Origin: Nitzschia sp. DOCU1
Taxonomy: Eukaryota > Bacillariophyta > Bacillariophyceae > Bacillariales > Bacillariaceae
Length of the DNA stretch: 64,000 nt
Reading direction: 5' to 3'
NCBI GenBank assembly: GCA_951394045.1
Contig: OX595990.1
Span: 3,464,549-3,528,548, forward strand
The notes under the pieces were generated by a model, which worked only from the letters and a program-made list of their open reading frames with translations, made no database searches and had not been told where the DNA came from. This document shows, in pieces, positions 3,001-48,698 of the stretch (position 1 is the stretch's first letter; each line of letters starts with the position of its first letter). A program made the translations under genes and the position numbers.

Positions 3001-6000
3001 AGAGAGCCTGTTGATGACCACACGATTTCCTTGACACGGACGTCATATTCATTGAATTCGACGCAGATGACCTTTGGTTGATTGGTTCTGGAAGATCGAC
3101 CGATGCATGCTGCTCTGAAGAACGTTCCATTTTCGTTGTATACGACCCCGAGTTCAGTCCAATGATTGTATGGACCAACGATCGCGTGTCCATCGATGCC
3201 ATTCCAAAGAATTTCCGACGATAGAACGTGAGGAAGAAGCTCGAAAGATCCTTCAACGTTCCCATCCTTGTCGAGCAACAAGGCGAGAACACAAGACGAT
3301 ACACATTTGTAGAGCAGAATTCGACTCTGCTTCAGGTAGACAATCCTCGATCCTTCGCCGAGGGACTTCGCTGCTGATCCTACAATACCAACAGAGGAAC
3401 CAGACCGCGCCCTGACTCCAGTTGTTGGCAACGAAACAGACCCACTAAGTTCACACGGCTGGTCGTTGGGGGCTTCCAAACGACCCTCTGAGTCTTCTTT
3501 TAGATCAACTGAGTGAAGTCGGCCATTTTCGAGCAACATGAACATCTTCGACGTGGTTCCTTGTTCCGGCCGCCGTGAAGGGAAAACCGCACTTTCTGGG
3601 CCATCCGAGACGCTCAATGGCACCAAAGCGATGTCGCGAAGGGACGCCTCGAAACCCAAATTATATGCAACAACCGCATTTGAGCGTTTGTCTTTGCTTC
3701 TTGAAATGTCGAATACACGCACATATCGCCCACAACCGACGACAAGGTTTGTCTGGGAACCTGGCACAAAGTCGCACTTGACAAGGTAGTCAGTCTCCCC
3801 ATCATTTTGATCCAGATCGAGTGCGAGATCAATGGTCGTTTCTACGCCGTCCCAGTGGGGTTTAATGACTACGACGCAGGCTTCGGAGACACCCCAAACA
3901 ATCAAGTGTCGCTCATTCTCGGGGCACAAACGCATTCCAACGATATTGAATGCCACCGTAGTGGACCCAAGAATACACATCTGCTGTCTAGAGAGCGGAG
4001 TTTCGTATGCTTTTCCGCCATATCGGGTCGCGGCAGCAGGCATGGCACTGCAAAAAACAAGGGAACACGGCTCGGCAATCACCAAGCGGCCTCGGCTGTC
4101 AGCGACTAGATTGCATCGTGTGATATCGTGTCTTGATAGCTTCGCAAGCAAGTGAGCATTCGTTGACGTATCTGACGACATCCTTGTCTGGAATCCTTTC
4201 GCAGACCGGACGGGAATCATGGTCTTCGCCGATAAATGCTTCAGATCTAGCGGCTTGGCGTGTCGCCCGCGCAACTGTTTTCGAAAAGCAAACGGCGGTA
4301 CTCGGTGTGCTGGCCTCGTGCTGGCCTGCGTGATGTCGTTCCAAACTGGGAGAATTTTGGCATCAGACGAACTCGCATCTTTCCATGCCAAGAACTTTTG
4401 TCGAAGCAGATCGAAGAGCGCAATGAACCACGGTTCTCCAAACGAGGACTTGGAGAGTTTGGAAAGTGCGAGCTTGGTCTGACGACCGAAGGACTTGAAT
4501 GCGATTTCGACACTGAGCGAGGGAAACGTAGGTTCCTTCTGGTCAACCCGTTTCGTAGAATAATCAACTTTCTGCTCGGCAACGTTGACTGATGATCTTT
4601 CCGCCTCGGTCAGCTTCTTAACCTCATCCTCCGGGAGCTGCATCATGCAGCGGCAAGAAACTCGGTTTTCAGAAGACGCAGTCCCATCTTCCGCTGCACA
4701 ATCGCAAAAGAACGAGCTATATCGCGAGTAAGACACGTCGTGCCCCTTGTGACACACTAGAGCACAAAGGGTGCAGCAACCCTTCTCCCAGACGAGACCG
4801 CAGGTGTAGCAATTGTACCAATGTTGTCCGTGGTATCCAGTCTTTTCCACAAATGAACACCTTCTACCGAGTGGGGCGATGGCCTTTGGAGAATGGTGCG
4901 GCTCATCGTTTTTCTTTTCATTTACGGGGCTATCGACGACCTTCATCTTGTCTTCGCCCGAGAATGCATCACTGAGATGCTTGACGAAGGCGAAAAATTT
5001 CGTTACAAGTTCCAAGTCCACGACACCTTCGCCTGTTACGATCGGATCGCCACCACTTTCGAGTGCAAGAATTTTGGAACCAATCTCATTGAGGGAGTGG
5101 AACCGGCACCCGAACGCTAGCAAGGTATCAAAAGCGTGCTCGAGTTGATTCATCTGTTGAGCACGTGGCCATGAGCTGAAAGATTCAACTAGAACCTCAT
5201 AGACAAACTCAGCCGGCTCAAATGTGCCATCTGTTCCCTCTGCATTCACGCTGCTCATCATGTGCAGCAAGAGATGCGACAGCTCGACTCTGTGGGAGGA
5301 GTACGGCGACACGTCGTCGCCGAGGCAACACAAGTCGTCGAGAATGAGATTTCTGATCTGCGCTCGATCGACGCCATTGAACTCCTTGATCACAGCATTG
5401 AGTACTACCGGCGGCGTGGATGGGTGTCTCTTAAGTAGCGTTTGTTCTGACCCCACCAATCGTCCAAGAAGAACAGCCGAGCAAGCCCGGCTACGATCGT
5501 TTGTCTTTACTTGGGCACGGCACAGGATTGCAACAAGATCTTTTATGCTCTCCAAGCGACTTTCGAGGCTAGACCAACTCAAAGTAGAACAAGTCTGTAC
5601 AAGAGCATCCATGGGCTTCCCTTTGAATACGTCAAAGATGTCCAACGAACTACCAACTATGGTGTCAATCGTATGGGATCCGGATGCCTCGTAAAAGGTG
5701 AGAAGCCTTTCCACTTCGAGCTCAGCATCTTCATCCATTTCTTCGCTTGGAGTACAGCTGAAATCTTCGACGATGAGAGTGAGACGTTCAATGATGTAAG
5801 GAAGAACTTCAAGAGCCGCGGCTTTCTGCAGAATAGCATCGGGGAGTCGAAGTACCGACTGAAGTCCGACGAAAGCGAGTCGAATCGATTGTAGACCTTC
5901 AAGGTCAGCAAAAGTCTTCGTATCTACAAATAGGTGTGCAGCAACGGCATGACAGGTACCCGACAGAGCGTCATCACCGTGGGTAGAGAGCTTGGATAGA

Positions 6001-19823: not shown

Positions 19824-21452
19824 ATGGCATTTAATTTTGGTGCACCCGCTCCCGCTGGTGGCGGTGGAGGATTCAGCTTTGGAGGGGCAGCCCCCGCACC
19901 GGCGGCTGGTGGTGCTGCTCCAGCCCCAGCCGCACCGACCTTTAGCTTTGGAGGAGCGCCAGCAGCATCAGCAGCAGCGCCCGTATCCTTCAACTTTGGT
20001 GGAGGCAGTAGCTCTGGCGATACTAGTAGTAATGCGGCTGCCGATCAGGGAGCGTCCAAAAAAGCCAATAACGGTACGCCCAGCTTTTCCTTTGGAGGAT
20101 CTGCAGCATCTGCTCCTGCTCCTACCTTTAACTTTGGAGGAGCGACACCAGCGCCAGCGGCAGCATCTTTTGGCGGCGATTCTGGTGCCGCCAAGCCGTC
20201 CTTTGGTTTTGGAGGAGCTGCACCTGCACCTGCTGGTGGGGGCGATGGTGGTGGTAGCAGTAAAGTGTCGTTTGGCCTTGGAGCGCCTGCTCCTGCCGAC
20301 AATCCAGAGGGCAAGGCGGCGCCTGCCTTTAACTTTGGTGGTGGCGGTGGATCATCGGCACCACCCCCGGTTCCTGCTCTTGGCGGAGGAGGATTCAACT
20401 TTGGAGGAGCAGCTAGCGGCGTTGGAACTAAGGACAATGACGACGACGACAAGACACCACCGCTGCCATCCTTCAACTTTGGAGGAGGGGCTACTACGAG
20501 TAGTGGCGACGAAAACAACAAAAAAAACAAGGCGCCTTCCTTTAGCTTTGGAGGTGGTGGCGATGACGACGATGATGACAAGACCCCAGCACCTGCTCCT
20601 GCTGCCATGGGTGGGTTTAGCTTTGGAGGTGCGGCTCCTGCAGCATCGACTCCGGCCCCTGCTGCAAGTGGCGGTGGTTTTAGCTTTGGCGGTGGGGGTG
20701 CTGGTAATAGTACTCCTGACAAGGGCAGCACGAGCACTACGGCTCCAGCCACCCCAGCCACTCCGGCAATGTTTGGTACTCCTGGCGGTGCCCCACTTCC
20801 CGTCAATACTCCCAATACCAAGACCGATGCGAGTAGCGCGGCCGCAACACCTGCGGCTGCACCAGCACCGACTCCTCCTTCGATTCCCTATCAAACCATG
20901 ACGGTTGAACAAATCTTGAACAAGTTTCAAAAAGAACTCGAAGCTGACGCCTTGGCGTTTATGGAACAAGCCAAACGCGTCTGTGAATACGATGCCATTG
21001 TTCGGGATAGTCAACGCGATTTGGCGTATTTGACCACTCAAACTCAACGCTTGCTTCTAGAGCAGACACAAGTCGAAACCACCTTGGTGGGTATTTCGGC
21101 CTTTCAAGATCAATTGGAAGCTACGTTGACTCAAGTAGAAGAACAAGTCGATCAACTCTTTCAAAGTCAATCGCATTTGGCCCCACAAGATGCCGATGTT
21201 CAACGAGAACGAGCTTATCAAACGGCCATGGCTGTCGATGCTCAATTGGAAACGTTGACAACAACCTTGTCGTCGACTTTGGAATCCCTCAGTAATTCGT
21301 ACGAAACTACGGAAGAACCTACGGCACAATTGGTGACGGTACTCAATCAACATCAGGATGCCTTGGGGCGTTTGGAGGGAGCGACTCGTCAATTGGAGTT
21401 GGATGTCAAACACGTGGGACGAATGTTGACTTTGCAACAACAGTCGGCGTAA
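19824..21452 (+). CDS. NUP62: Nsp1/NUP62-type FG nucleoporin
   Basis: Single exon, 542 residues. Residues 1 to about 340 form an Ala/Pro/Gly-rich disordered region with about fourteen FG units, mostly FSFGG and FNFGG, spaced 15-30 residues apart. Residues from about 355 (IPYQTMTVEQILNKFQKELE) to the end are predicted coiled coil rich in Gln, Leu and Glu. This is the arrangement and approximate size of Nsp1/NUP62, the central-channel nucleoporin that binds transport receptors through its FG units and trimerises through its coiled coil. DNA of the FG part is repetitive, which produces long spurious open frames on the opposite strand. The ATG at 19824 starts directly with an FG unit (MAFNFG). 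Confidence 0.9.
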   Translation: MAFNFGAPAPAGGGGGFSFGGAAPAPAAGGAAPAPAAPTFSFGGAPAASAAAPVSFNFGGGSSSGDTSSNAAADQGASKKANNGTPSFSFGGSAASAPAPTFNFGGATPAPAAASFGGDSGAAKPSFGFGGAAPAPAGGGDGGGSSKVSFGLGAPAPADNPEGKAAPAFNFGGGGGSSAPPPVPALGGGGFNFGGAASGVGTKDNDDDDKTPPLPSFNFGGGATTSSGDENNKKNKAPSFSFGGGGDDDDDDKTPAPAPAAMGGFSFGGAAPAASTPAPAASGGGFSFGGGGAGNSTPDKGSTSTTAPATPATPAMFGTPGGAPLPVNTPNTKTDASSAAATPAAAPAPTPPSIPYQTMTVEQILNKFQKELEADALAFMEQAKRVCEYDAIVRDSQRDLAYLTTQTQRLLLEQTQVETTLVGISAFQDQLEATLTQVEEQVDQLFQSQSHLAPQDADVQRERAYQTAMAVDAQLETLTTTLSSTLESLSNSYETTEEPTAQLVTVLNQHQDALGRLEGATRQLELDVKHVGRMLTLQQQSA

Positions 21453-21914
21453 ATTTCAAGAGGAATGAAAGGGGGGGCTCTCGCTCGGCTAGTCATTCAT
21501 TGATTCTACTTTTACTACCTCGAGTAGACAATATCAGTCGTCGCTCAAGTATGGTGCCCCTTGCTCTAGCAGAGCTGTAGCCTTTTAGTAGAATGCGACT
21601 ATTAGTCTTAATATATGATGAAGCTACACAATCACGGCGATAAGGCTGTGCGCAGACCTTCCACGCGTCAGCAAACTAGGTGGGCGCGGGAAGCAACGGG
21701 ACTCAAACTTTGAAACAGGCAGCCGGGCATCATACATGCTACCCCTTCGGATGCATCTTTCTCTTTTGGTCTTTTACTCGACGTTTTAGGACAGAAAACC
21801 AAGCGAAGACTTGCCATCGCGGATCTAATTTACTCCCTCTTGTCCCTGATCCCGGACACGATGGTGGGGGGCTTTTGGTTTGATCGTCCTTCTTGGATGG
21901 ATACTTAAGAGTTC
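21453..21914. other. 3' flank of nucleoporin and 5' flank of the STING-like locus
   Basis: No complete gene. From about 21,746 to 21,905 there is an open stretch of about 50 codons in the same frame as the STING-like ATG at 21,915, ended by a TAA at 21,906-21,908. It could be a lost N-terminal extension or chance. Confidence 0.35.
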
Positions 21915-23072
21915 ATGATAAGGGAGTTCAAAGAGGAGCCGCCTGTATCATTCTTCCAGCGAAACCAGGAAATAAAAAGAGAAATAATCTACTTTTTGTT
22001 TTTGGTGGTAGTTGGTGGAATAGTCATCGGGTTCTACTGGTCGACATTGAATGGATATCAGCTCTTCGCAAGTTTGTTCTTTGCGTCCGGTTTCATACCC
22101 GCCATTCAGCTGTTCATTTTTGATTTGTTCCCGCGAGCTTTTCGACGACGTCAGGACCGTGAGATCGAAGATGACGAAGCTCAAGTCAAGTTGAAAGATC
22201 AGTTTTCAACGGTCATGTTGTCGATTATTTTCCTCGCAATTGCTTTTGCAGTTTATCCAACTCCGGAACAGGACGAAGATTCCTGGGAGATTGTCAGTGG
22301 CAAAACACTGTTTGAAGCTGGACTGATCTACTTTGTGTCACGCGTCCTGTTTTTCGTTCCGAATCCGAATGACAAAGAACGAGAGTTGAGACAACAAATC
22401 AAATCATTGAAAAAGAAAATGTCAATAGGATTAGCAGATGGGTACTTTTGGAATTTGATACGAGAGATAGCCATTGATGTTAAAGATTCCAACAACGGAC
22501 CACAAAGGAGTTGAAATTGACATTCCCAGGACGACCACCGACTGAAGTATACAAGACGGTACAAAGATTTCTAATTCTGGTTCCCAGATCATTAAATGCC
22601 TTTTGGGACAACGAAGATCCAATGAAGGACTTGATCTTTCAATACAAAGATTCTGGACAGTTTCAAGATTGTCAAATTGAAAAGAGTCCTGCGAGGTCCG
22701 AGAGTACTAGAATCAAATGGGTGACAGATATTCAGATCGACGAATCGAGTGATTATGGAATTCTGATTGATTTGCTAACGACCATTACGGCCTTGATTAT
22801 GAATTTGAAATTTGAAGTTTGAGAATGGGAATTTGAACAATACGCAAGCCAGAGAGAAGTACACGGAAGAAGTGAGTGCATTTGCCTACCGTCTTGCATG
22901 GCAATTGGCACGGCAACCAAAGGATATGCAAGACCGTGTGGCCGTTGTAGAAATCAGAGACCCGGATGATCTCATTGAAAAGATACGGACAGTGGATAAT
23001 TACCTGAAGTCAGCTTCAGTCCCCCAACCGCAGCAGCCCATTTCTCAGCCAACTCCTCAGCTGAACCCCTAA
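21915..23072 (+). pseudogene. STING-like cyclic-dinucleotide receptor with four membrane helices; frame broken twice
   Basis: Three open segments in one direction read as one protein of about 385 residues: 21915 to about 22,505 (frame 1), about 22,505-22,805 (frame 2) and about 22,812-23,072 (frame 1 again). The first has four hydrophobic helices (about residues 24-42, 48-72, 97-114, 130-148), a charged connector helix, and GLADGYFWNLIREI, which fits the opening helix of STING ligand-binding domains. The second gives RFLILVPRSL (strand) and LIDLLTTITAL, like the PTTL-type ligand loop of bacterial STING. The third is a long amphipathic helix, a strand (DRVAVVEI) and a Pro/Gln tail. Four helices plus this domain is the animal STING layout. 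The second break coincides with an exact 7-bp tandem duplication (AATTTGA twice) near 22,801-22,814; the first needs -1 or +2 near 22,505. It is either a recent pseudogene or two sequencing errors. No intron fits. No nucleotide cyclase gene was recognised nearby. Confidence 0.62.
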
Positions 23073-23478: not shown

Positions 23479-24894
23479 TCACACAATTCCTTGCTCAAGC
23501 ACTGGTTCGCCCCGTAATACTCGATCATAGCTAAATACACTCAAATCCAACGTTTGAAAGGTCCCCGTCGTCAACAATTCGGCTGCCGCTCGTCCCGCGG
23601 CGGGACCATGTTGCAGTCCATGTCCCGAAAAGCCATTGACTAACAATAAATTGGGCACTTGCGGATGAAAATCCAAAATACAATTTTGATCCAACGTATT
23701 GTATTCATACAATCCAGCCCAACTAGACAACAATTTGATATTGCCAAAGGCAGGAACGCGATGATACAATGCGGGCCATATAATATCTTCCCATAATTCA
23801 TAGTCGGCTTGTAATTCGGGAGGAGAAGAAGGATTCCAATGATAATCCGTGTCTTTTGCGGCGGGGGGCGATACGCCGCAAACAAAGGTCCCTGCCCCTG
23901 GCAAACCTTCGGAACGAAAGTAAACTCCTGTTAATGGATCAATCGTCAATGGTGCAATTTGTGGGACTGTGTGTCCTTCTTCTTGATGATCTGCCGAACA
24001 ATGAAAGAAAAACATGCTCCGTTTGCGTGGTCGTACCGGAAAAGGTGCCGTCAAGGGTTCGGCGCCTTCAAGTACTTGTAACAAGTCGTTAGCATAGGCT
24101 CCAGCCGCATTGACCACTTGGTTGACTTGAATCCATTCTTTTTGTTGTGATTTGCAATCTAGCAATTCGACCATTTGAATGGCACCCGTATCCTTGCAAC
24201 GTTGAACATTGGTGGGAGTCGCATGCTTGTAGACAATGCCGGGTGCCGTCGTATTCTTGTTTTTGAAGGCCATGAGCAACGCCCAAGGATCAAACCAGCC
24301 CTCTCCTTTGAGACCCAACGATCCTAATCGTATATCATCAATGTTGAGCCATGGAAACTTGGTAGCAAGTTCTGTTGGCGATAACAAGACAATATCGTCC
24401 TTGTGGTCCTTCAAGATTTCTTGTTGTAATGTGTGATTCTCGTGCAATTGCTGGACTCCCGTTTCATTGGCCGCTAGAAACAAGTATCCATGTTCAACGA
24501 ATTGTACATTGGGTGCATCCTCGTCATGAGTGCGTAACAGTTCGTGAGCTTGTCGTAAAAAGTCTCGACCATAGACGCTCATGGCGATATTTTCACGGAG
24601 TGAGAATTGTTGTCGAATGCCTGCCGCCGAGACAGTGGCCGATGCGGAACGATACGTAGGATCTCGTTCGACAACCCAAATAGTCTTTGGTTCTTGGGTC
24701 TGATGTTGCTGTTGCAGCAATGTCAAATGATAGGCTGTAGAGGAACCGATGGGGCCACCTCCCACAATCAAGGTATCGACGCATGTTGCAACCAAACGAC
24801 GGGTGCTGCTGGCGATGATCCGGCTGGCCCTGTAGGAGGAGGCGATTGATGATGAAAGGAGCTTGTTTCGCGTCATCATCGTCATCATCGTCAT
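23479..24894 (-). CDS. FOXRED1: FAD-dependent oxidoreductase, FOXRED1/DAO family
   Basis: Single exon, 471 residues from the ATG at 24894; the frame upstream opens only with non-ATG codons. The N-terminus is basic and Ser/Ala-rich (NKLLSSSIASSYRASR), as expected for a mitochondrial presequence. A Rossmann dinucleotide fold follows at about residues 43-50 (DTLIVGGGPIGSSTAYHL), and the FAD motif VVERDPTY lies about 40 residues on. SAAGIRQQFSLRENIAMSVYG and the C-terminal GFSGHGLQHGPAAGRAAAELL match the D-amino-acid-oxidase-like family and especially FOXRED1, a factor for mitochondrial complex I assembly. A sarcosine or dimethylglycine oxidase relative is the alternative. Confidence 0.8.
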   Translation of the reverse strand: MTMMTMMTRNKLLSSSIASSYRASRIIASSTRRLVATCVDTLIVGGGPIGSSTAYHLTLLQQQHQTQEPKTIWVVERDPTYRSASATVSAAGIRQQFSLRENIAMSVYGRDFLRQAHELLRTHDEDAPNVQFVEHGYLFLAANETGVQQLHENHTLQQEILKDHKDDIVLLSPTELATKFPWLNIDDIRLGSLGLKGEGWFDPWALLMAFKNKNTTAPGIVYKHATPTNVQRCKDTGAIQMVELLDCKSQQKEWIQVNQVVNAAGAYANDLLQVLEGAEPLTAPFPVRPRKRSMFFFHCSADHQEEGHTVPQIAPLTIDPLTGVYFRSEGLPGAGTFVCGVSPPAAKDTDYHWNPSSPPELQADYELWEDIIWPALYHRVPAFGNIKLLSSWAGLYEYNTLDQNCILDFHPQVPNLLLVNGFSGHGLQHGPAAGRAAAELLTTGTFQTLDLSVFSYDRVLRGEPVLEQGIV

Positions 24895-27048
24895 CGTCGT
24901 CGTTGATACAATAGCATCGCTACGCACTTGTTATAGACAACCTCTCTACTATTACAAAGGCGTCGACGACGACAATGAGCTTCACTAGTGAAGCAGATGA
25001 AACGAGTCGGAGTGAAATTCATGTCGGAATAATGAGAAATGGGTGCCGATGAAGCCAGACTGAAGTCCCGAATCATCTAGTCAGTCATCAAAAATGACCT
25101 TTCGGTCGAAGAAGTCGGTTTAGCTCTTGCCGCACGTATCGTGGGTACTGATAAAAAAGGAAGGCATTGGCGAAGGGGCTATTGATAAAGAACGGTCATT
25201 GCATTTGAGTTACTTAGAGATATCCTTTTAATACATAAAAGAATTCGATGTTCTTTCATGACCGGCCGCCGCGCGCACACACGCACACCTGAAAGAGCCA
25301 TCGCGATCCACACGGTAGTTAGGGGGCCTCTCTAGAGAGCAAGAATGCTGGACGTTCTCGACGATCCATTGCAAACAAAACAATCAAAGGATGAAAATAA
25401 AAAAGACATAATGCAGCAATCAACATGTTTTGAGAGGTTCTCGGAGCGACAGTCCGAAGCTAGCGAGGATAGTGGAAAGAGTTGGCGAACTTGGTGATGA
25501 TGAATGTGGATTACTTTCAGCGAACGTGGAAGCTCATCGTGGGAAACATCACGAAACTGCTCGCAAACCACCACAGAAACTGCTTGGATCTCAGCATTCC
25601 TTCCCACAAATCCATCACTTTTTCACTCAATCGAGGTCACTTTTCTGCGAAAGGAGCAATCTGCGTCGCTCCTTTTTTCATTGTCCCCGTGAACTTCAGG
25701 ACGATGGTGAAGATGACAGTGCTACAGTGGCCACCAGCTGCTGTTTGTCTCCCAGGAAAGTCGGCAGTCCATCAAGTGTGGAAATGACGTCCTCGGGTCC
25801 TCACGGGTAGGACCCGAAAAGCTCCGATGGATAGCACGCCTGGATGTTGTTGTGAAACAATGTCCTGGGGTTCCTACAGCTGGAATCCTAAAAGCTTCCA
25901 TCGGCAGCACGCCGGATCGATCCTCGCTCGTGTTCTGTCTTTTGTTCTTCTCTCTTTCTTTTCAACATATTTCTTTCCGGCAGTGCTACTCACCTTGTTC
26001 TTTTCTCATGTTGCAGGCGTCTGGTGTTGTTCTACAATACCAACATTTTCCAGAGCAACGATCCTGATCGGTGATCTCGACCCCGATTCCGATTCTCCCC
26101 GCACACAAACAGCCTGATCAACGCAACCGGTTTGTGGTTCCGGTTTGAAAACGTCCTCCACTCGCGTTCGTGTCTCGTCGCGGAGAGTTAAGTGTAACCT
26201 GTGCTGGTGCGTGGAGAATTGGAATGGGCTACGCCGTCGAGTGAAGTGGATTGTTGTCTCTACCGGGCGGAGCAGCTGTGGCCCGCCCCCTCCGAAATCG
26301 AACTGCTTTGACGTAGCGGTGGGGCTCAGTACTTTTTTGTGTGAGAACACAAAAACGAAGCCAAAAGTTCGATGAATAGATAGATGATAAATCTAGTTGC
26401 GTTGTAGTAATGGCGTTTTCCGCCAGGACTAGCTCGTCAAGAAATAGTTGCGTCATTGATCGTGCTGGCTATGAGAAGTAGCTAGCTGGGTTGCATCGTC
26501 TCTCGCACGATACATAACATATTATTGCTCCGAACAAAATACGTTCTAGTCCTACTATTATTTCAAATCGGTTCTTGGCGACGCTTCCCTTTTGCGTATC
26601 ATATTTTCCTTCGCAAACAGTGGTCCCGCACTCTTGTGCTTGAATTGGTGATGATCATTCTCGTCTTCTTCAGCAGGCTCAGCTTATTTGCCTTGGCGTC
26701 ATCGTCATACTTTGGATCGCTACCGATTGGGTGCCGAAAGGCCACGGGTAAGAACGAATCTTACTGATAGGTAGCTTCGATGACTTCAATGCCTTCTTGT
26801 ATACGCGTCGCAGGAACAGCTTGCCATGCCCAAGAAATAAAGGACCACAACCAGGACGACAAACTTCAGCCACTTTTCTTTTCCAGTCCCTGATAGGCCA
26901 ATGCTTTGGCGCGTCGTCCATAACGGTTGGTGGTAGTACCACGGTGATTGGACGATTGGGCGTTCCCGGCCGCTGTGATAACAGCGAGTGCCACCTGATC
27001 GCTTTCCATTGAAAGGGATCTGGATCATTTTCTCTTTGTTCCAGTGTA
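24895..27048. other. Gene-poor stretch, nothing identified
   Basis: Overlapping short frames on both strands, none with a recognised motif. A partial direct repeat is visible at about 25,818-25,842 and 25,891-25,915 (AAAAGCTCCGATGG against AAAAGCTTCCATCGG, each followed by AGCACGCC). It may contain exons of an unrecognised gene. Confidence 0.4.
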
Positions 27049-29912: not shown

Positions 29913-30488
29913 TTTGCTAACTACAACACCTGGGGAGGTGTCGACAATACCTGGCTCTTCGATTGATGAAGGGAGAGTCGGCGAAAGAGCAAAAGAAAGA
30001 GGCTCATGGTCGTCAACCATGTTTCGTGTCGAGCATCGCGAAACGACGATTCAGCTGGCGTTGCTCACTTCGGGCGCGCGCAGCCATCTCGCCACACGGG
30101 TGGACGCACCCACAACCGCACCATGCTCGGTGCGCTGCAGCACGGGCTTCTCCGGCATAATGCATGGCAATAAAGGTCTTGAAAACGGAGAAACCCATAT
30201 AAATAAAATTGACCACGTCAGACGGAGCATATGTCTCCGCCTTGATGGGCATATACAAATGACGACGTGTCACCTCATTTCTCACCCCTTTAGCCCAATC
30301 AGATGTGTTGAACATGAAAAGGAAATTCCAAGAGGATGTGCTGCTTTCCAATGCAAATGGCCTGCATCTCGGCTCGATGTTTTCGGACGCTTTCGACGCG
30401 TCTCGGAATTGATGTTTTGTGTTCCCTCACACCGAGACTTTTGTTTTCGTGACAACTTGTTGTGTTATCCTGCTTCTTTACTGTTACT

Positions 30489-31955
30489 ATGGCTGCTGCT
30501 GCTGTTGACCCTGCTGTGCAGGAATTTGCTGGCTACCTTGGCGACGTCCTTGCTTTTGATCCTGAGATCGTTGAGGCATTGCTCTGGCAAGGTTACTCAA
30601 AGTTTGACGACGTGAAAAGTATCGTTGATGAGGATGAGTTGGATTCTTTGTTCTCCGCCATCCGCCGTCCTGGCGGTACTATACTCAACAACAATAACGA
30701 GGAGATTAACAACCCCGGTACCTTTATGGGGACCAACCAGCAGAAACGCTTCCGTCAGTTGGTCTATTATATGCGTTACATGGAGACGATCCAGAGGGAT
30801 TTTGTCGTTGCCGAGGCTTCGCTTGGTCGTTTGACCAGATTGTGGAAGTTTAAGGTCGACCTGGATAGGATTAAGAAAGACGGCAACCCCTCTCTACCGG
30901 AGAAGTTTACTACGGCTAAAAAGTCGAGGGAGACGATTGAGGACATCGATTCTTGGATTGGTTCCTCCTATGGAATCGAGGGGACTCCTTTGGAGTATAT
31001 CGTCCGTCCCGAAGTCCAGCTGCCTGCCACCGATCCCGGGTTCGGAAATCCTACCTTTCGTTCCGAGTTGATTCGTCGTGCTCACCACACGGGAGACACT
31101 TTCCAGATCGACAATGAAACGGTTTTCAATCTCATGCGGCATGTTACTCACGGCACCGATGCGTGGGCATTTGTTAAGCAGTTCGACCGCACCAAAGACG
31201 GACGGTCCGCCTACTTGTCGTTCAAGGCGCAGTATGCTGGTGCCTCTCATATCAGTCAAGTGAAGAATAAGGCGGAGAATACTCTCAACACCATCTTCTG
31301 GAATGGCAAGGCGCGGAATTTCCAATGGGATGGCTTCATTGCGCGTCACAGGAGTGCCTTTGCCGACCTGGAGGCTTACGGAGAAGGCCGTACAGATGAG
31401 GCTAAGGTGCGCAGTTTGCTCTCACGTATCACTGACGAGCGTCTTGCTGTTGCAAAGGGAGTTGTTTTCTCGAATGCGGCTCTTTTGACGAATTACCAGC
31501 AGGCCATTGATTATCTCGGAGGCCAGCTTGATGCGGCTGAGAGTATGGTAAAATCAGCACTACCGAGGAATATTTCGAGCACCACCAGCTCGGGCGGCGA
31601 CGGACGAGGTGGACGAGGTCGCGGTGGAAGAGGCCGCGGACGAGGTTTTGGAAGAGGTGGTGGTAGAGGCGGTCGAGGCCGAGGACGTGGAGGTGGCGGC
31701 GGAGGAAGATTTTCCGAATCAGGTCACCTACTCAATAATGGCTCGTACCCCTTTGCTATCTGGAATACTTTCACAAAGGAGGAGAAGGATTATGTTATGG
31801 ATCTAAAGCGCAAGTCGGGAAACCGCAACGTGTCGAGTACTAAGTCGGAGGAAACGCCGACGACCGTGTCTACGCGCGCCCAGAGTGAGACATCATCAAT
31901 GAGCGTCGACAACAGTCATGTTGCCGCTTCTATGACTCGACGAAAGAAGGATTGA
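30489..31955 (+). CDS. gag: Retrotransposon Gag
   Basis: Frame open from 30,462. The ATG at 30,489 (MAAAAVDPAVQEFAGYLGD) is the likely start because the first one adds a hydrophobic leader foreign to Gag; this gives 488 residues. There is no CCHC zinc knuckle. Instead an RGG-type basic region (about 31,590-31,710, repeats of GRGG and RGRG) probably binds RNA. It ends at UGA 31,953-31,955, and the very next codons continue in the same frame into the protease. Confidence 0.85.
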   Translation: MAAAAVDPAVQEFAGYLGDVLAFDPEIVEALLWQGYSKFDDVKSIVDEDELDSLFSAIRRPGGTILNNNNEEINNPGTFMGTNQQKRFRQLVYYMRYMETIQRDFVVAEASLGRLTRLWKFKVDLDRIKKDGNPSLPEKFTTAKKSRETIEDIDSWIGSSYGIEGTPLEYIVRPEVQLPATDPGFGNPTFRSELIRRAHHTGDTFQIDNETVFNLMRHVTHGTDAWAFVKQFDRTKDGRSAYLSFKAQYAGASHISQVKNKAENTLNTIFWNGKARNFQWDGFIARHRSAFADLEAYGEGRTDEAKVRSLLSRITDERLAVAKGVVFSNAALLTNYQQAIDYLGGQLDAAESMVKSALPRNISSTTSSGGDGRGGRGRGGRGRGRGFGRGGGRGGRGRGRGGGGGGRFSESGHLLNNGSYPFAIWNTFTKEEKDYVMDLKRKSGNRNVSSTKSEETPTTVSTRAQSETSSMSVDNSHVAASMTRRKKD

Positions 31956-34900
31956 TGCCGTGGCATTTCCTGGCTACGGCGGGTTGTTGCTTCTTATTCA
32001 TCTCACACCACTGTTTCACGCTGCGAACTGGATTCGCACGCCGACACATGCGCGTTCTCTCTCGAACATTGTTTTGTCCTCCACACCTACAACACCAACA
32101 TCAACGTTAGTGGCTTTCATGACAGTATGGAGCCAATCAGAAATGTTACCGAGGCCCTCGTGGCCGTGGCGTATGATTGCCCGGTAACTATGCACACTTA
32201 CATTCTTCTTTTTGACCATGCACTCGTTTTGCCTAATATGTCTTGTCATTTGTTGTGTCCCGACCAACTGAGGGAAAACCAAATTGTTGTAAATGACGTG
32301 GCTTTGCAACGAATCCCACCGGATAAACGTGCAGCCACTGATCACAGTATTTTGGACCCCAAGAGCGGTCTACACATCCCACTACAATACGACAAACCAT
32401 TTTCATATTTTCATGTCAGGAAGCCGACTCGTGCCGAGGCTACTGATCCCATCAACTACATTCATGTCCGTATGACCAGCGAGTTGGAATGGAGGCCATC
32501 AGATTCAAACTCGAATCTCGTGGAAGAGCATCTTCGGCGACAAGTCGGTGGCGATTCATATTTCAATACGATCTCGGCTACAAATACCACCCAATTGTTT
32601 TCTCTTTCTTCTCTTCTACAGGCCGACGAACGTATCTGCTCTGCATTTCACAACCTTGCTCTTGCCACCGCTTTAGGGGACAGGGTGATGACTACGCTTT
32701 CTGCGATGAAAACGGCAGCAAGATCTACGCTTGTGACTGCTGACCAGTTAGCGCAACGATGGCGTATTAGCCTGGAAGCAGCGCAACGAACTTTGACAAA
32801 GACAACACAACGAGCTGTCAGAGATTGGAGCCGTGTTTCAGGGGACCGATTATTTCGGCCAACAGAGTATGCGCTACGATACAGGAGGCTACGAAGCAAA
32901 TTGTTCGTTGACGTGAAATTTGGCCCCACAAAGTCACTCGAGGGCAACACTTGTATGGCGGTCTACTCGACGCCATTCCAGTGGGTAGCTGGTTTTCCGC
33001 TTCCGAGGGAATCTGAAGTCCATACTACTTTGGACAAGGTCTTTCGCACTGTTGGGTTCCCGGAATCCATTGTTCCTGACTCTGCTCTCTCTCTCACCAA
33101 AGGCGAGTTTTTGAAACGATGCCAACGCGCTCAAGTACCAATTCTGCCAGTGGAACCGTACCGGCACAATCAATCTCAAGCCGAAAACGCAATTCGTGAG
33201 GTCAGTCGGCTGTATGAGCGGACAATGTTGGCCCGCAATGTTCCTGCCTGTCTCTGGGACCGTTGCTACGCAACGTGTGCCGAACAACGAAGTCACACTG
33301 CTCTAGGTCACCCTGAGCAGAACGGTGAATGCGCAGCAACGATAGCTGCAGGGGACACGGCGGATATTTCACATCTTATTAACTTTGGTTTTTACGATTG
33401 GTGCTGGGCTCGATCACCACGAGAATCAAGCCAACCGCAGAAACAATTGTGTCGTTGGCTTGGACCAAGTTTCGATGTTCCGGATGTGCTCTGTCAAGCT
33501 GTTCTCACCTCGAACGGTAGCATTTTGCACCGTTCTTCTGTTATTCCACTCTCACAGGACGAGCACCAGAACGAGGATATCAAGCGGATGAAGCAAGATT
33601 TCACCGACAAACTTGCCGCAAAGCTAGGCGAGCGAATAAAAGGGATCGACTTGAAGCCAGACGATGGCGATAAAAGATTTATCAGGGCGGAAGATAATGT
33701 ACCGGCTTTTGTTCCCTACGAGGACGATGAAGCAAACGAGGTAGATGAGCAGGATAAGGAGTTCGTCCCGCCTCCCTTTGATGAAGAAGAGAAGCCGCTC
33801 GAGTATGATCATTATGTATCAACAAAGATACGAAAGGCGACAGGGGACGGTAATAATGTTTTGACAGGCGTCGTTCGTGGACGCAAAAGAGACTCAAATG
33901 GAAACTTTATCGGGCATTTTCACGAGAATCCGCTGCTGGATACAGCCCAATACGAAGTTGTTTGGGCGAATGGGGATGTTGAATGCGTTACAGCTAACCA
34001 TATTGTGGAATCTATCATGGCGTCTGTTGACGAAGAAGGATACACAATTGCCTTTGTGAAGGAGTTTGTTGATCACAGGTGCGACGGTACAGCTCTGAAG
34101 GCTGACGATGGCTTCATTGAACGCGGAGGCCAGAGGATCCCAAAGCGCACTACAAAAGGCTGGAGTATCTGTGCCGAATTGAACGATGGGAGTACAACGT
34201 GGATTCCTCTGAGAGACGCGAAGGAAGCTTACCCAGTCCAAGTTGCCGAATATGCTGTTGCGAATAAACTTGTCTCGGAACCAGCGTTTGCTTGGTGGGT
34301 TCCTTTCACTCTGAGGAAAAGGGACAGTGTCCTGAAAGCGGTAAAACGTCGTGCCGTACGAAGGAAGAATGAGAAATTTGGAATTGAGGTTCCTGGGCCA
34401 ATGGATGTTGCCCGTGCACTCGAGATTGACCGCGAGACAGGAACTCAACATTGGGCTAACGCGATGGCGAAGGAAGTCAAGACGGTCATCCCTGCATTGA
34501 AAGTTTTGGATTCGGAAGAGAAGGTTCCTGTTGGCTCGCAACTCATTGACCTGATGGTTGTCTTTGATGTCAAAATGGACCTGACTCGCAAAGCAAGGAT
34601 CTGTGCGAGAGGGGACCAAACCGAGCCGCCGTCTTCGGTTACATATGCAAGCGTGGTTACAAGGGAAAGTATTCGTCTCGCTTTCTTGCTTGCGTCTTTG
34701 AATAATTTGTCTGTTCTTTCTGCCGATATTGCAGGTGCTTATTTGAATGCACCGTGTGCTGAAAGGGTTCATACGATTCTTGGACCTGAGTTCGGCGCGT
34801 TACAGGGCAAGACCGCGGTGATAGTGAAGGCACTCTACGGTTTGAAATCTGCCGGATTTTCATGGAGAAGCTACTGTGCCAAGACCCTCCGGGAGGAATT

Positions 34901-36071
34901 GGGTTTTATTCCTTGTCGTGCCGATATGGATGTTTGGTTTCGAGAGGCCGTCAAGTCGAACGGCGAAAAATACTACGAATATTTGTTGGTTTATACTGAC
35001 GATTTACTTGCAATAAGTATGGATCCGAAGGGTATTCTTGACGATCTTAACATGCGTTTCTTGTTGAAAGAGGATTCAATTGGAGAACCGACGAGGTACC
35101 TTGGGGCAACGATCTCAAAGTTCTGGATTGATGGTGACCCCATGCCGAAATGGGCGATTGGTTCAGGGGACTACATCAAGGAAGCGATCCGTGTTATTAA
35201 GTCAAGGCTCGCGCAGATGGAACTCGAATTGAAATCTGGGGCGAGCGCGCCATTTCCCTCTGGGTATAAGCCAGAATTGGATGTTACCCCGTTACTCAAT
35301 GATGAAGGTGCCACGTTTTATATGCAGTGTGTTGGTATTCTTCGGTGGATTGTTGAGCTCGGTCGAATCGACATCTGTACAGAGACATCAATGCTGGCGG
35401 CTTACAATGCGTGTCCACGAGATGGGCATCTTAAGGCGGCCTTACATGTGTTTGCTTATCTGAGTAATCATGAAAGATCAAATCTGGTCATGGACGATGG
35501 ATACCCGGACCATTTGCCGGAATTGCCGAAGCATGAATGGAAGGAATTCTATCCATGGGCGGCTGATGATTGGCCACCAGACGCGCCAACTCCCCTCGGG
35601 AAACACGTGGTAATTGTCATGTTTGTTGATGCGTCTCATGCAGCTAACGTTATTACTCGTCAGTCAAGAACAGGTATATTGATTTGGGTTAATCGTGCTC
35701 CGATTGTCTGGTATTCTAAAAAGCAAAATTCGATTGAGACAAGTTCTTTTGGGTCGGAGTTCATGGCGTTGAAGACGGGCGTTGAGCTTTTAGAAGCGCT
35801 CCGTTACAAGTTACGAATGCTTGGTGTTCCTATCGACGGGTATGCTCATGTTCTCGTCGACAACATGTCTGTTGTTAACAACACAAGTGTGCCGGAGTCT
35901 ACTCTCAAGAAGAAGTCAAATTCGATTGCTTATCACTACGTGAGGTCAAAGGCAGCGGCGGACATCCTACGTATTGGTTATGTTAATACCAAGGCGAACC
36001 TAGCCGACATGTTGACCAAGGTTCAGAGTGGAGCGGAGCGTAAGGAGCTTGCAAGACAAGTCCTGTTCTAA
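31956..36071 (+). CDS. pol: Retrotransposon Pol: protease, integrase, reverse transcriptase, RNase H
   Basis: Open in the gag frame from the codon after its UGA. The protease motif ELDSHADTC lies at about 32,025-32,051, upstream of the first ATG at 32,127, so translation must enter from gag. The integrase core shows VDVKFG (Asp), VPDSALS (Asp) and QAENAIRE (Glu) with a second spacing of about 35 residues. Reverse transcriptase has RKARICARGDQ, SADIAGAYLNAP and the catalytic YTDDLL (about 34,992). RNase H has FVDASHAA, SSFGSEFMALK and a C-terminal NTKANLADMLTK. This is the copia-type Pol, about 1,370 residues, without other stops. Confidence 0.92.
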   Translation, partial: CRGISWLRRVVASYSSHTTVSRCELDSHADTCAFSLEHCFVLHTYNTNINVSGFHDSMEPIRNVTEALVAVAYDCPVTMHTYILLFDHALVLPNMSCHLLCPDQLRENQIVVNDVALQRIPPDKRAATDHSILDPKSGLHIPLQYDKPFSYFHVRKPTRAEATDPINYIHVRMTSELEWRPSDSNSNLVEEHLRRQVGGDSYFNTISATNTTQLFSLSSLLQADERICSAFHNLALATALGDRVMTTLSAMKTAARSTLVTADQLAQRWRISLEAAQRTLTKTTQRAVRDWSRVSGDRLFRPTEYALRYRRLRSKLFVDVKFGPTKSLEGNTCMAVYSTPFQWVAGFPLPRESEVHTTLDKVFRTVGFPESIVPDSALSLTKGEFLKRCQRAQVPILPVEPYRHNQSQAENAIREVSRLYERTMLARNVPACLWDRCYATCAEQRSHTALGHPEQNGECAATIAAGDTADISHLINFGFYDWCWARSPRESSQPQKQLCRWLGPSFDVPDVLCQAVLTSNGSILHRSSVIPLSQDEHQNEDIKRMKQDFTDKLAAKLGERIKGIDLKPDDGDKRFIRAEDNVPAFVPYEDDEANEVDEQDKEFVPPPFDEEEKPLEYDHYVSTKIRKATGDGNNVLTGVVRGRKRDSNGNFIGHFHENPLLDTAQYEVVWANGDVECVTANHIVESIMASVDEEGYTIAFVKEFVDHRCDGTALKADDGFIERGGQRIPKRTTKGWSICAELNDGSTTWIPLRDAKEAYPVQVAEYAVANKLVSEPAFAWWVPFTLRKRDSVLKAVKRRAVRRKNEKFGIEVPGPMDVARALEIDRETGTQHWANAMAKEVKTVIPALKVLDSEEKVPVGSQLIDLMVVFDVKMDLTRKARICARGDQTEPPSSVTYASVVTRESIRLAFLLASLNNLSVLSADIAGAYLNAPCAERVHTILGPEFGALQGKTAVIVKALYGLKSAGFSWRSYCAKTLREELGFIPCRADMDVWFREAVKSNGEKYYEYLLVYTDDLLAISMDPKGILDDLNMRFLLKEDSIGEPTRYLGATISKFWIDGDPMPKWAIGSGDYIKEAIRVIKSRLAQMELELKSGASAPFPSGYKPELDVTPLLNDEGATFYMQCVGILRWIVELGRIDICTETSMLAAYNACPRDGHLKAALHVFAYLSNHERSNLVMDDGYPDHLPELPKHEWKEFYPWAADDWPPDAPTPLGKHVVIVMFVDASHAANVITRQSRTGILIWVNRAPIVWYSKKQNSIETSSFGSEFMALKTGVELLEALRYKLRMLGVPIDGYAHVLVDNMSVVNNTSVPESTLKKKSNSIAYHYVRSKAAADILRIGYVNTKANLADMLTKVQSGAERKELARQVLF

Positions 36072-36560: not shown

Positions 36561-39500
36561 CTATCTAGACGATAAACACTCGCAGTCGGCGCAATTCACG
36601 TCCCCGGCAATTTGGTCATAACGCCAAGGGCCCGAATAGAAGCCACCACAAATAGCAGTAGGGTCGACGCTATTGCAAACGTCGGCGGTGCAAGTCGAAG
36701 CTGAAATTGTCACCGAAGTTGCCTGGACTCTACCAAGATAATTGCACGCAAGTTCTCCTATACAGGAATCGGTGCCAATAGTAACGGTGGTGGCGCTGTA
36801 TCCAACATCGTCGCACGCAGATTGTCCAATGCATGACCCATCGTAAATTATTACGGATTCGGCCAGATATCCGCCAACATTAACGCACGCATATCTTCCA
36901 ATACACGACCCACTCCCCCCACTCCCAATAGTAACGGTGGTGGCGCTGTATCCAACAGCGCCGCACGCATCTTCTCCAATGCATGACCCATCGTCAATTA
37001 TTACGGATTCTGCCAGATTTTCGCCAACCATTTCGCACGCATATGCTCCAACACACGACCCACTCCCAATAGTAACGGTGCTGGCGGAGAAACCAGCGTC
37101 TAAGCACGAATAAAACCCCGTGCATGACCCATCCCCGATTGTTACGGATTTGGACAGCTCGTTGCCAAGAGAATAGCACGCTGAAAATGCGTTGCAAGAG
37201 CCATCCCCGATGGATACGGTCTCGCCTACCGGCCTACATGCTTTATATTCATTGCATGAATTGCTGCCAATGGATATGGATGTGGCAACCTGGGTGTCTG
37301 TATACCGATCATGACCAATCCTGAAGCACGCCATGGGTCCATTGCACGAGTTTGCACCCACAATCGTGGATGTCGATGTGTCTGCAAACCAGCAAGCACC
37401 GTTGCCATTACAAGAACTTTTGTAAACTGTGGCTTCTCCTTCCCATTCACATGGAACTTCATAAGTATCGGAAGGAGCAACTGTGGCTTCTCCGGCATAG
37501 GAAGGAGAAGTGCAACAGACATCTTTACCTGTCAATGAATCACACCAAGCTTGAACCTGTGACACGGTTCCAGTGCAAGATTTTGACGAAGTGGGGCAGT
37601 GTTCCGAGGGCATCCTTGACGGAAAAGTACTTGGAAAAGAACTCGGAAAAGAACTTGGAAAAGCGGATGGCACGGCGCTGGGCGAGCTGGTGGCTTTTCC
37701 AGTTATGATCTCGTAGGTTCCACCAGTTGTCTCCGCAATACTGGCAGCTGCAGTACGCAATGTAGTGCGTTCGCTGGCAAGAATGACACCTATATTGGCC
37801 GCATAAATGTTGCCAGTGGCCGTCATGGATACCAATATTACGACAAAGTCTTGCAAGAGTTGCCTGGACGTTTTTTCACCTTGGAGTTTTCCATTGTCAT
37901 TCTCCCTGGCCCTCAACAATTCGCGACGGCAACCGCCAAGGGCTGAAGGGTCGATGATGACATTGGAGACTTGAAGGTATTGTGGCTCACATGGGAAGTG
38001 TTGCAGCTTCATATTTTCATTGAACGTATCTGAGAACTGGGTGGCCATGACCTGCAAATCTGCGGCCTTCAGGCACTTTCCGTCCGAACGACGAGCGAAA
38101 AACTGTAGAGAAATTGTGGCGGAGGGGCCATCTGGAATTGTAGGGCATGGAATCTCCACATCCACTGCATTTCCACAGATTGAAGGATTCTTGGCCCAGG
38201 GCAGTTGATCTGGAATCAATACTTCTAATCCAGCTCGGATTGCCGCCCGGCTGGGAGCACTTCGTTGAGAAATCGATGCGCGGTCGCAGATACATGTCGA
38301 CCCGGCTTCTTGGAGGAGACGGTGCTCTTGCCATGATGGCTTCGAAACTCTTGTTATGACTTCATTCAGCCTCCGATTGGAGGTGATGCTGTCACCGAAT
38401 AGCGGGATTGGCGTTCCCAGGACTTGACATCCTCGACAAACACCCGTAACAGTGAATGTCGCACGGAAATTTAAACATCCTTGCATATTCTGCAAGTCTC
38501 TGTCGTGCCGCCCCGCTGCTGTGCTCGACCGCTGCAGGCTTCCAGGGACATACGTCAAAGAAATGGAATTTCGAAAGTATTCATCGCAAAACTCTTCCAC
38601 CAATTCATTGTAGAGTTGTGCGATTACATCGCCAAGGCCTTGAACGTCATCTGGATTGTTGACAACCCACTCGAAAGCTGAGAAAAGGAAATTGATGGTT
38701 GTCGAGAACGTTGTCTCTTCGACGCAGTTGACTCTCGTAAGGCCGGACACTACTCCTGTTACAGTGGTGGTGTTGCTTATCTTGACGACCTCCTCTTGGA
38801 TAACGTCAAGCAATGAAATTTGCTCGAAGTTGGTAGCAACCTCAACCGATCCGATAGGGCAGTAGCAATCTGATTCTGGTTCCTCCCCGCCGAGTATGTC
38901 TTGCAATAATCGATACTCCCTCATGGAAGTAGTGCTGATCTTGTCCTCATCTCTGATGTTATACAATTGTCTGCGACCATCTGCCGCGTTACTGAAAATC
39001 AGTTCCGCCGGGCACCCGTTGCACACCCCAAATGCATCAAGTAGGTAAAGACCTGTTTCCTCCACAACTTGAATCGTTGGGGCCGCGGTAGGAGCTTCGC
39101 TGGTGTTGGCTCCGGACGCGGACGACCAGGAGAGCGTAAACGTCGAGTCTGCTGTGGGAGCTAACGATGGCAGGTCTTGGAGTTGACGACTTGCCGTCTC
39201 GTTGGACCTCAGTTTTTGTGACGATGCCAAACAAATGGTTACACACCGTTGCATTCCCTCCGCCAATCAACCTGTCGAGCGCATTGATGTACGCTCTCTC
39301 TAAGATCTTTGATGTTTTGATGGGATCGAGGGTACCATTGGTGCCTTGGACTTCTAGCAATGCACTGGCTGTGAAGCTTGTCCCGAAGTGGCAAGATGTC
39401 GTGTTGCCAATGCATGGCAGGAGAAGATCATCTTGTTTGACGAAGGATAGGTCAAGAGCATCGGTTACATCAGCTTCCAACAGAGGACGTCGTGCTAGTG

Positions 39501-48324: not shown

Positions 48325-48698
48325 TGGTGGTCGAATAGTAAAATTTTGCTAGTTGTATGTTAGACTTTTCTTCGAACCAACAGCATTCAAGACTATCTCA
48401 GATAATCATGATGGAGGCGCCAACCCCATTCTTTCCTTGTACTTGCAGTTGAGATAGTTGATGCCTGATCCGCTCCCATGACGACGACGACACCACCGCC
48501 CCCCGGGCCGACCTCCTTTTTGGAATCTCGCCAAGTTGCCGCCAAAGTTGTGATGGCTTCGCCGATGCGTATTCTTCAAATATGCCCTCTCGGGGGAAGC
48601 ATACCCTGTTTTTCATATTGCCCTCCCCCTCCACCATGCCTCCTTCCACTAATGCATAAGGTCATCTTCGTTCCTGAATATGGCATTGTTTGAATAGC
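48325..48698. other. Intergenic, with a short recurring element
   Basis: 48,524-48,566 (ATCTCGCCAAGTTGCCGCC ...) resembles 28,480-28,522 and more weakly 42,226. No gene. It should hold the protease promoter. Confidence 0.45.

Follow-up and report, generated by a model that had tools for sequence, protein, structure and literature searches.

The 64,000-nucleotide window considered here is the whole stretch of DNA that was analysed (Nitzschia sp. DOCU1, assembly GCA_951394045.1, contig OX595990.1, positions 3,464,549-3,528,548, forward strand). At 21915-23072 it carries a gene in three pieces which, read together across two frame breaks, give a 384-residue protein in which four hydrophobic stretches and a charged connector precede a STING ligand domain. 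On sequence grounds, the locus encodes a homologue of the STING domain. It is quite likely to be the broken remnant of a diatom bacteria-like STING, a cyclic-dinucleotide membrane receptor that recently lost its function, and the gene in this strain is probably dead or dying. The features of the locus are as follows.

21915..22511, + strand: piece 1, frame 0; ATG, four hydrophobic helices, a charged connector helix and helix alpha-1 with GLADGYFWNL; from the open reading frame (ORF), hydropathy and the profile; in-frame stop at 22512
22484..22819, + strand: piece 2, frame 2; core of the ligand domain with the strand FLILVP and LIDLLTTITAL; from the ORF and the STING profile; stop at 22820
22809..23072, + strand: piece 3, frame 0; amphipathic helix, strand RVAVVEI, last helix and Pro/Gln-rich tail; from the ORF and a weak profile score; TAA at 23070
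in the overlap 22484..22511, + strand: first frame break, frame 0 to 2; from open frames, codon preference and profile scoring
at about the overlap 22809..22819, + strand: second frame break, frame 2 to 0, at a near-repeated AATTTGAA stretch; from open frames, codon preference and profile scoring
22709-22711, 22769-22771 and 22778-22783, + strand: pocket residues of piece 2 (lid arginine, aspartate and TT, respectively); from a 37-row alignment

Recognition of the STING domain

The read-through protein matches the Pfam family prok_STING (PF20300) with E = 1e-6 and 29.2 bits, and the ligand domain by itself does so with 2.2e-7 and 31.4 bits, the cut-off being 27.1; for the single, unjoined pieces the Pfam scan lists no PF20300 match. 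The TIR-STING model of PADLOC is matched at 1.9e-5 through its STING part only (model positions 145-298 of 310, protein residues 160-334).

A prokaryotic yardstick was obtained by scanning a degenerate code of the motif GLAxGY[F/Y]xNF over one genome per species in 84,980 species, which gave 85 stretches (L003-L087). Forty-eight of the ORFs found have at least 120 residues after the motif; three of these (L048, L080 and L086) were dropped by eye as unlike STING and the other 45 were given to Pfam, where 39 match PF20300 and the remaining six match other families. Further ORFs, in which the motif lies close to an end of the locus or is followed by a shorter remainder (e.g. L017, L050, L061 and L070), were dropped before counting, so that the STINGs counted are a minimum for the scan. 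A profile was built from 39 prokaryotic ORFs picked by eye, the Pfam table not naming its own 39 matches; the alignments A2 and A3 combine 36 of the 39 with the window piece, L015, L045 and L066 having been removed as near copies.

The profile of 39 STINGs gives the read-through protein 47.8 bits over residues 169-347. Because the 39 had been picked by a motif that is nearly common to the diatom protein, the profile was rebuilt without the motif, and it then scores 25.1 bits for the whole protein and 27.1 bits for what follows the motif. Among 2000 shuffles the highest score is 6.7 bits on the whole profile and 6.2 bits on the motif-free one. Taken unjoined, piece 2 (17.5 bits), piece 1 (11.4 bits) and piece 3 (6.0 bits) hold ranks 1, 2 and 3 among the 485 ORFs of the window, the next scoring 3.9, and piece 3 by itself stays within the range of the shuffles. 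When the 36 prokaryotic STINGs and the window piece are joined in one profile, its matches include solved bacterial STINGs, at up to 5.8e-21, and animal STINGs, the latter from 4.9e-5.

The best two BLASTP matches of the diatom protein are the two-helix bacterial STINGs L072 and L043, at 4e-4 and 1e-3 (E-values that hold for the 39-sequence database only). With a partial-chain model of piece 2, the first four Foldseek matches are STINGs, at E-values of 0.16-0.28 that are not significant singly; the model of piece 1, uninformative at a pLDDT (predicted local distance difference test) of 53.8, gives no Foldseek match at E <= 0.001, and the best 50 of its 75 matches do not include a STING. A phmmer search of the Protein Data Bank (PDB) with the domain as a single sequence was empty, and the only matches of another PDB search were two capsid chains (E 1.5), regarded as chance hits. 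The NCBIfam scan gave two weak, unrelated matches only, and tblastn against plasmids gave nothing. Five stretches of viral contigs fit the pattern and 23 stretches came from genome contigs searched with the protein, none being confirmed in either set.

Layout of the protein and its predicted pocket

Before the domain, three hydropathy windows reach 1.6 or more (residues 24-42, 50-68 and 97-115) and a fourth reaches 1.51 (131-149). The AlphaFold model of piece 1, a single-sequence prediction of low confidence, places helices at 13-41, 45-57/60-71, 73-81, 87-113, 124-145, 153-170 and 177-192. The diatom protein has in outline, though in outline only, the four helices of the majority of published bacteria-like STINGs.

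The 37-row alignment brings the residues of piece 2 into register with the ligand pocket of prokaryotic STINGs. The aspartate of LIDLLTT falls in an invariant column, the arginine of STRIKW sits in the lid-arginine column, so that the diatom lid reads RIK, i.e. RxK, and the TT pair occupies the two columns after the usual proline of DxPTT, which is a leucine in the diatom. In the numbering of the window piece (P0001), it is R76, D96 and T99/T100 that align with conserved pocket columns. In solved bacterial STINGs, according to PMC10739871, the aspartate contacts the guanine base, and the ligand is stacked against or bonded by arginines of the lid; of the lid motifs, Rx(Y/F) and RxR are associated with recognition of cyclic di-GMP (c-di-GMP) and cyclic GMP-AMP (cGAMP). 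A threonine is assigned to the phosphate, residue roles being drawn also from PMC12424679. As these residues are kept, a putative cyclic-dinucleotide pocket can be assigned, and the intact protein is likely to have possessed it.

In the intact ancestor, most likely a membrane receptor, four helices would have anchored a cytosolic, V-shaped dimeric domain in a membrane, by analogy probably that of the endoplasmic reticulum. The domain would have bound a 3'3'-cyclic dinucleotide (at a first guess c-di-GMP) of bacteria inside the cell or in its surroundings, and the signal may have been passed on through oligomerisation. In this strain the frame breaks would halt translation after alpha-1. A search of the genome for a SMODS-type cGAS/DncV-like nucleotidyltransferase (CD-NTase) gave no match at E <= 1 (the control matched), and for this reason the ligand is probably external. 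Mab-21 (PF03281) likewise gave nothing in the genome, nor in the control genomes, and OAS1_C (PF10421) gave one genome match under the cut-off (17.1 of 19.9 bits), the control genomes having none. An external ligand is also proposed for the published bacteria-like STINGs in PMC10732462.

The assembly around the locus comprises 52.08 Mb in 63 contigs. A profile search finds 18 matches to the silicon transporter family, all 18 over the family cut-off, and the host is therefore a diatom. The size of the genome, these transporters, an intron in one transporter gene and a nucleoporin-like neighbour mark the genome as eukaryotic.

An earlier note, made from the letters of this DNA alone, had described a bacterial-type STING ligand domain on an animal-like membrane part in a diatom-like genome. 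The motifs and features that it listed are all present (GLADGYFWNL in piece 1, the strand FLILVP and LIDLLTTITAL in piece 2, the amphipathic helix and a strand, RVAVVEI, in piece 3). The ligand domain is borne out by the scores on PF20300 and on the 39-STING profile. The animal-like membrane part holds in outline, and the silicon transporters agree with the host that it named.

Loss of the gene, assembly error or splicing

The gene as it stands in the assembly is interrupted by two frame breaks and cannot yield the protein, and the locus is thus no evidence of a working pathway. With codon preference learned from ten long genes of the window, sliding windows switch from frame 0 to 2 and back to 0 along the pieces, and the means per codon for the three pieces are 0.03-0.12 in frame versus -0.26 to -0.83 off frame; the signal is weak at 21896-22040, at 22424-22616 (around the first break) and in the tail from about 22952. 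No second copy of the gene was seen, pieces 1 and 2 each matching only themselves in a search of the whole genome. A genome-wide search with PF20300 matched nowhere, the STING locus and 14 controls included, and so gives no evidence of absence.

Whether the breaks lie in the organism or in the assembly bears on the rival explanation that the gene is intact and working, its breaks being assembly errors (or the other allele being intact), so that the locus would encode a live diatom receptor. The coding sequence is undecayed, with codon preference kept in all three pieces and about 1.15 kb that, breaks aside, contain no stop, and the second break sits in a stretch of short repeats. However, neither break is at a long homopolymer, and the ten long genes of the window are open, though they were selected as long ORFs. 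The silicon transporters of the same assembly provide a further comparison: their 18 matches cover 15,807 bases by our own sum. Eight pairs of matches are split once each by gaps of 50-66 bases, which are intron-like, two matches lie in open frames longer than the match and stop at 442 and 445 of the 513 profile positions, and two hold one TGA; apart from these no break is seen. If assembly errors occurred at a single rate, the probability that both breaks would land in this 1.16 kb is about 0.005 by our own arithmetic. The transporter comparison and this estimate favour a real and recent loss, and a live receptor is unlikely.

A spliced gene, in which the frame changes are introns, is very improbable. 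The candidate introns run from GT to AG, measure 20-200 bases and have the length modulo 3 that the frame change requires, and there are 18 of them near the first break and 26 near the second; seven of the 18 and six of the 26 were scored alone and in every combination with the read-through (56 models), and then all 18 and all 26 singly. None exceeds the read-through on the whole STING profile. At the first break, removal of 20, 38, 32 or 29 bases comes within 4 bits (46.3, 46.1, 44.9 and 43.9 bits, respectively), the other 14 models reaching 31.7 bits at most, and on the motif-free profile the 38-base intron is slightly above the read-through (26.1 versus 25.1 bits). The one intron seen in a silicon-transporter gene of this genome (one gene, by eye) starts with GTAAGC, ends with ACAG and is about 80 bases long, but a 77-base model at the first break loses 16 bits and the candidates here have no GTAAG donor. 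At the second break all 26 models score 35.9 bits or less, a loss of at least 11.9, and treating the first part of piece 3 as an intron (40 or 43 bases) lowers the score by about 13 bits. Ordinary introns, modelled as GT-AG only, were accordingly rejected as the source of the frame changes.

Weakest of all is the proposal that the locus is not a STING but an unrelated membrane protein resembling the alpha-1 motif by chance: the single-sequence matches are weak and the phmmer search was empty, but the proposal is hardly credible beside a motif-free score far above all 2000 shuffles, three pieces that in order head the ORFs of the window and a Pfam match over the cut-off.

Neighbouring genes

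The two genes that flank the broken STING gene, identified by domain matches, are the following, and neither is an immune gene.

19824-21449, + strand: neighbour with an Nsp1-like C-terminal region
23479-24930, - strand: FAD-dependent oxidoreductase (DAO)

Three further observations concern the rest of the window. About 7 kb from the STING locus, at 30453-36071 (+), lie open frames of 500 and 1371 residues, the second with RVT_2, which are probably a Copia-type retrotransposon. An open frame of 900 residues at 36561-39263 (-) contains three DUF7640 stretches. At 48678-51575 and 52802-55117 (+), two adjoining subtilases with a proprotein-convertase P-domain, on the same strand, are likely to be a tandem pair.

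Relation to known STING systems

The closest published counterparts are the bacteria-like STINGs (‘blSTINGs’), which Culbertson & Levin reported in 2023 for stramenopiles and further protists and in which PF20300 is mostly carried on four helices (PMC10732462). Like them, the diatom protein is a eukaryotic one that has, in outline, four N-terminal helices ahead of PF20300, a search of its genome gave no CD-NTase of the SMODS kind, and the published hosts include stramenopiles; it differs in that the diatom copy is frame-broken. The combination of a bacterial ligand domain with an animal-like membrane part, to which the earlier note gave weight for how the pathway arose in eukaryotes, already marks these proteins of 2023. 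That note had also mentioned the frame breaks, rightly, but had given no weight to the fact that such a gene cannot make its protein. The architecture is not new but of a published kind, and what is particular here is the diatom host and the broken state of the gene. Neither PMC10732462 nor PMC12424679 uses the word ‘diatom’ in its main text, and no paper on a diatom STING was found among the matches listed for STING with diatoms or stramenopiles, although diatom entries may stand in supplements.

A preprint (PMC12424679) counts 50 STING genes in early-branching eukaryotes, with stramenopiles in its tree. There, two choanoflagellate STINGs from genomes without a cGAS-like receptor (cGLR) bind 3'3'-c-di-GMP at about 1 uM. 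The choanoflagellate STINGs of that account in general have four helices and a ligand domain, like the diatom protein, and those of Stephanoeca and Diaphanoeca resemble it also in that no cGLR partner was found; the preprint places them near bacterial STINGs. In contrast to the diatom protein, whose lid reads RxK, they were expressed and assayed.

Bacterial two-helix transmembrane STINGs (e.g. L003, L037, L051, L054, L066 and L072) also have a membrane anchor before PF20300, but with two helices rather than four, and ahead of the domain two membrane windows are the most that any of the 39 prokaryotic ORFs shows. Animal STING (PF15009) shares the four helices, the connector, an alpha-1 that starts with GLA and the order of domains, yet the diatom protein has no PF15009 match at E <= 10, in a search whose filters drop weak matches. 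By eye, no pLxIS/TBK1 tail is seen, the tail being Pro/Gln-rich. Unlike bacterial TIR-STING (Cap12), the diatom protein has no TIR listed by Pfam; both absences, and the composition of the C-terminus, are as the earlier note had read them. In contrast to an operon of the cyclic oligonucleotide-based antiphage signalling system (CBASS) type, there is no CD-NTase beside the diatom STING, its neighbours being the Nsp1-like gene and the DAO oxidoreductase.

Prokaryotic relatives and descent

A tree of 40 rows, comprising the 39 prokaryotic STINGs and the diatom protein as the one eukaryotic STING, places the latter beside seven bacterial STINGs at 85/80; published blSTINGs, for comparison, branch between bacterial and animal STINGs. 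Six of the seven show two membrane windows and one shows a single window. The diatom branch has a length of 2.57 and is flagged as long. Five groupings, named after the tree had been seen, were tested, one of which is the grouping already in the tree, and the other four were not rejected (p-AU, from the approximately unbiased test, of 0.283 for another two-helix set, 0.22 for twelve long ORFs, 0.256 for the Hodarchaeota pair and 0.148 for eight short ORFs), so that no donor can be named.

Protist membrane STINGs might conceivably descend from bacterial two-helix STINGs by doubling of the hairpin to four helices, in which case the animal-like architecture would be inherited rather than convergent. 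This is a doubtful proposal, to which we give little credence; the weak grouping of the diatom domain with two-helix bacterial STINGs would make this protein a witness to such a descent.

Among the prokaryotic STING ORFs of the scan, nine have two hydrophobic windows before the domain (L003, L006, L037, L043, L051, L054, L066, L072 and L081), with hosts in the Comamonadaceae, Verrucomicrobiota and Bacteroidota. Two other loci have unusual arrangements. L042, at 98-3622 on contig JAUUVJ010000035.1, from a metagenome-assembled genome (MAG) of Candidatus Hodarchaeota, has two adjacent STING ORFs (PF20300 at 62.4 and 47.7 bits) in a row with a membrane protein of the 8xMP type and two TIR proteins of the ThsB type. 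On this MAG-derived contig the arrangement resembles a defence island of an Asgard archaeon, with its STINGs in tandem. In L031, from a MAG of the Comamonadaceae, an ORF that runs from stop to stop over 1100 residues, around 5049-5588, has the STING motif at residue 930; this is possibly a long fusion, or else an open frame that merely extends upstream.

Implications

Diatoms live among bacteria, many of which produce c-di-GMP, and to our knowledge little is known about how diatoms sense them. By itself, the locus leaves the picture of how STING entered the eukaryotes unchanged. Through it a diatom is added to the protists, scattered as they are, in which a STING-type receptor is or was present. 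The locus seems to show a gene loss in progress, which would fit a patchy distribution of blSTINGs. If a transformable diatom had an intact orthologue, STING could be tested directly as a sensor of bacteria in a photosynthetic protist.
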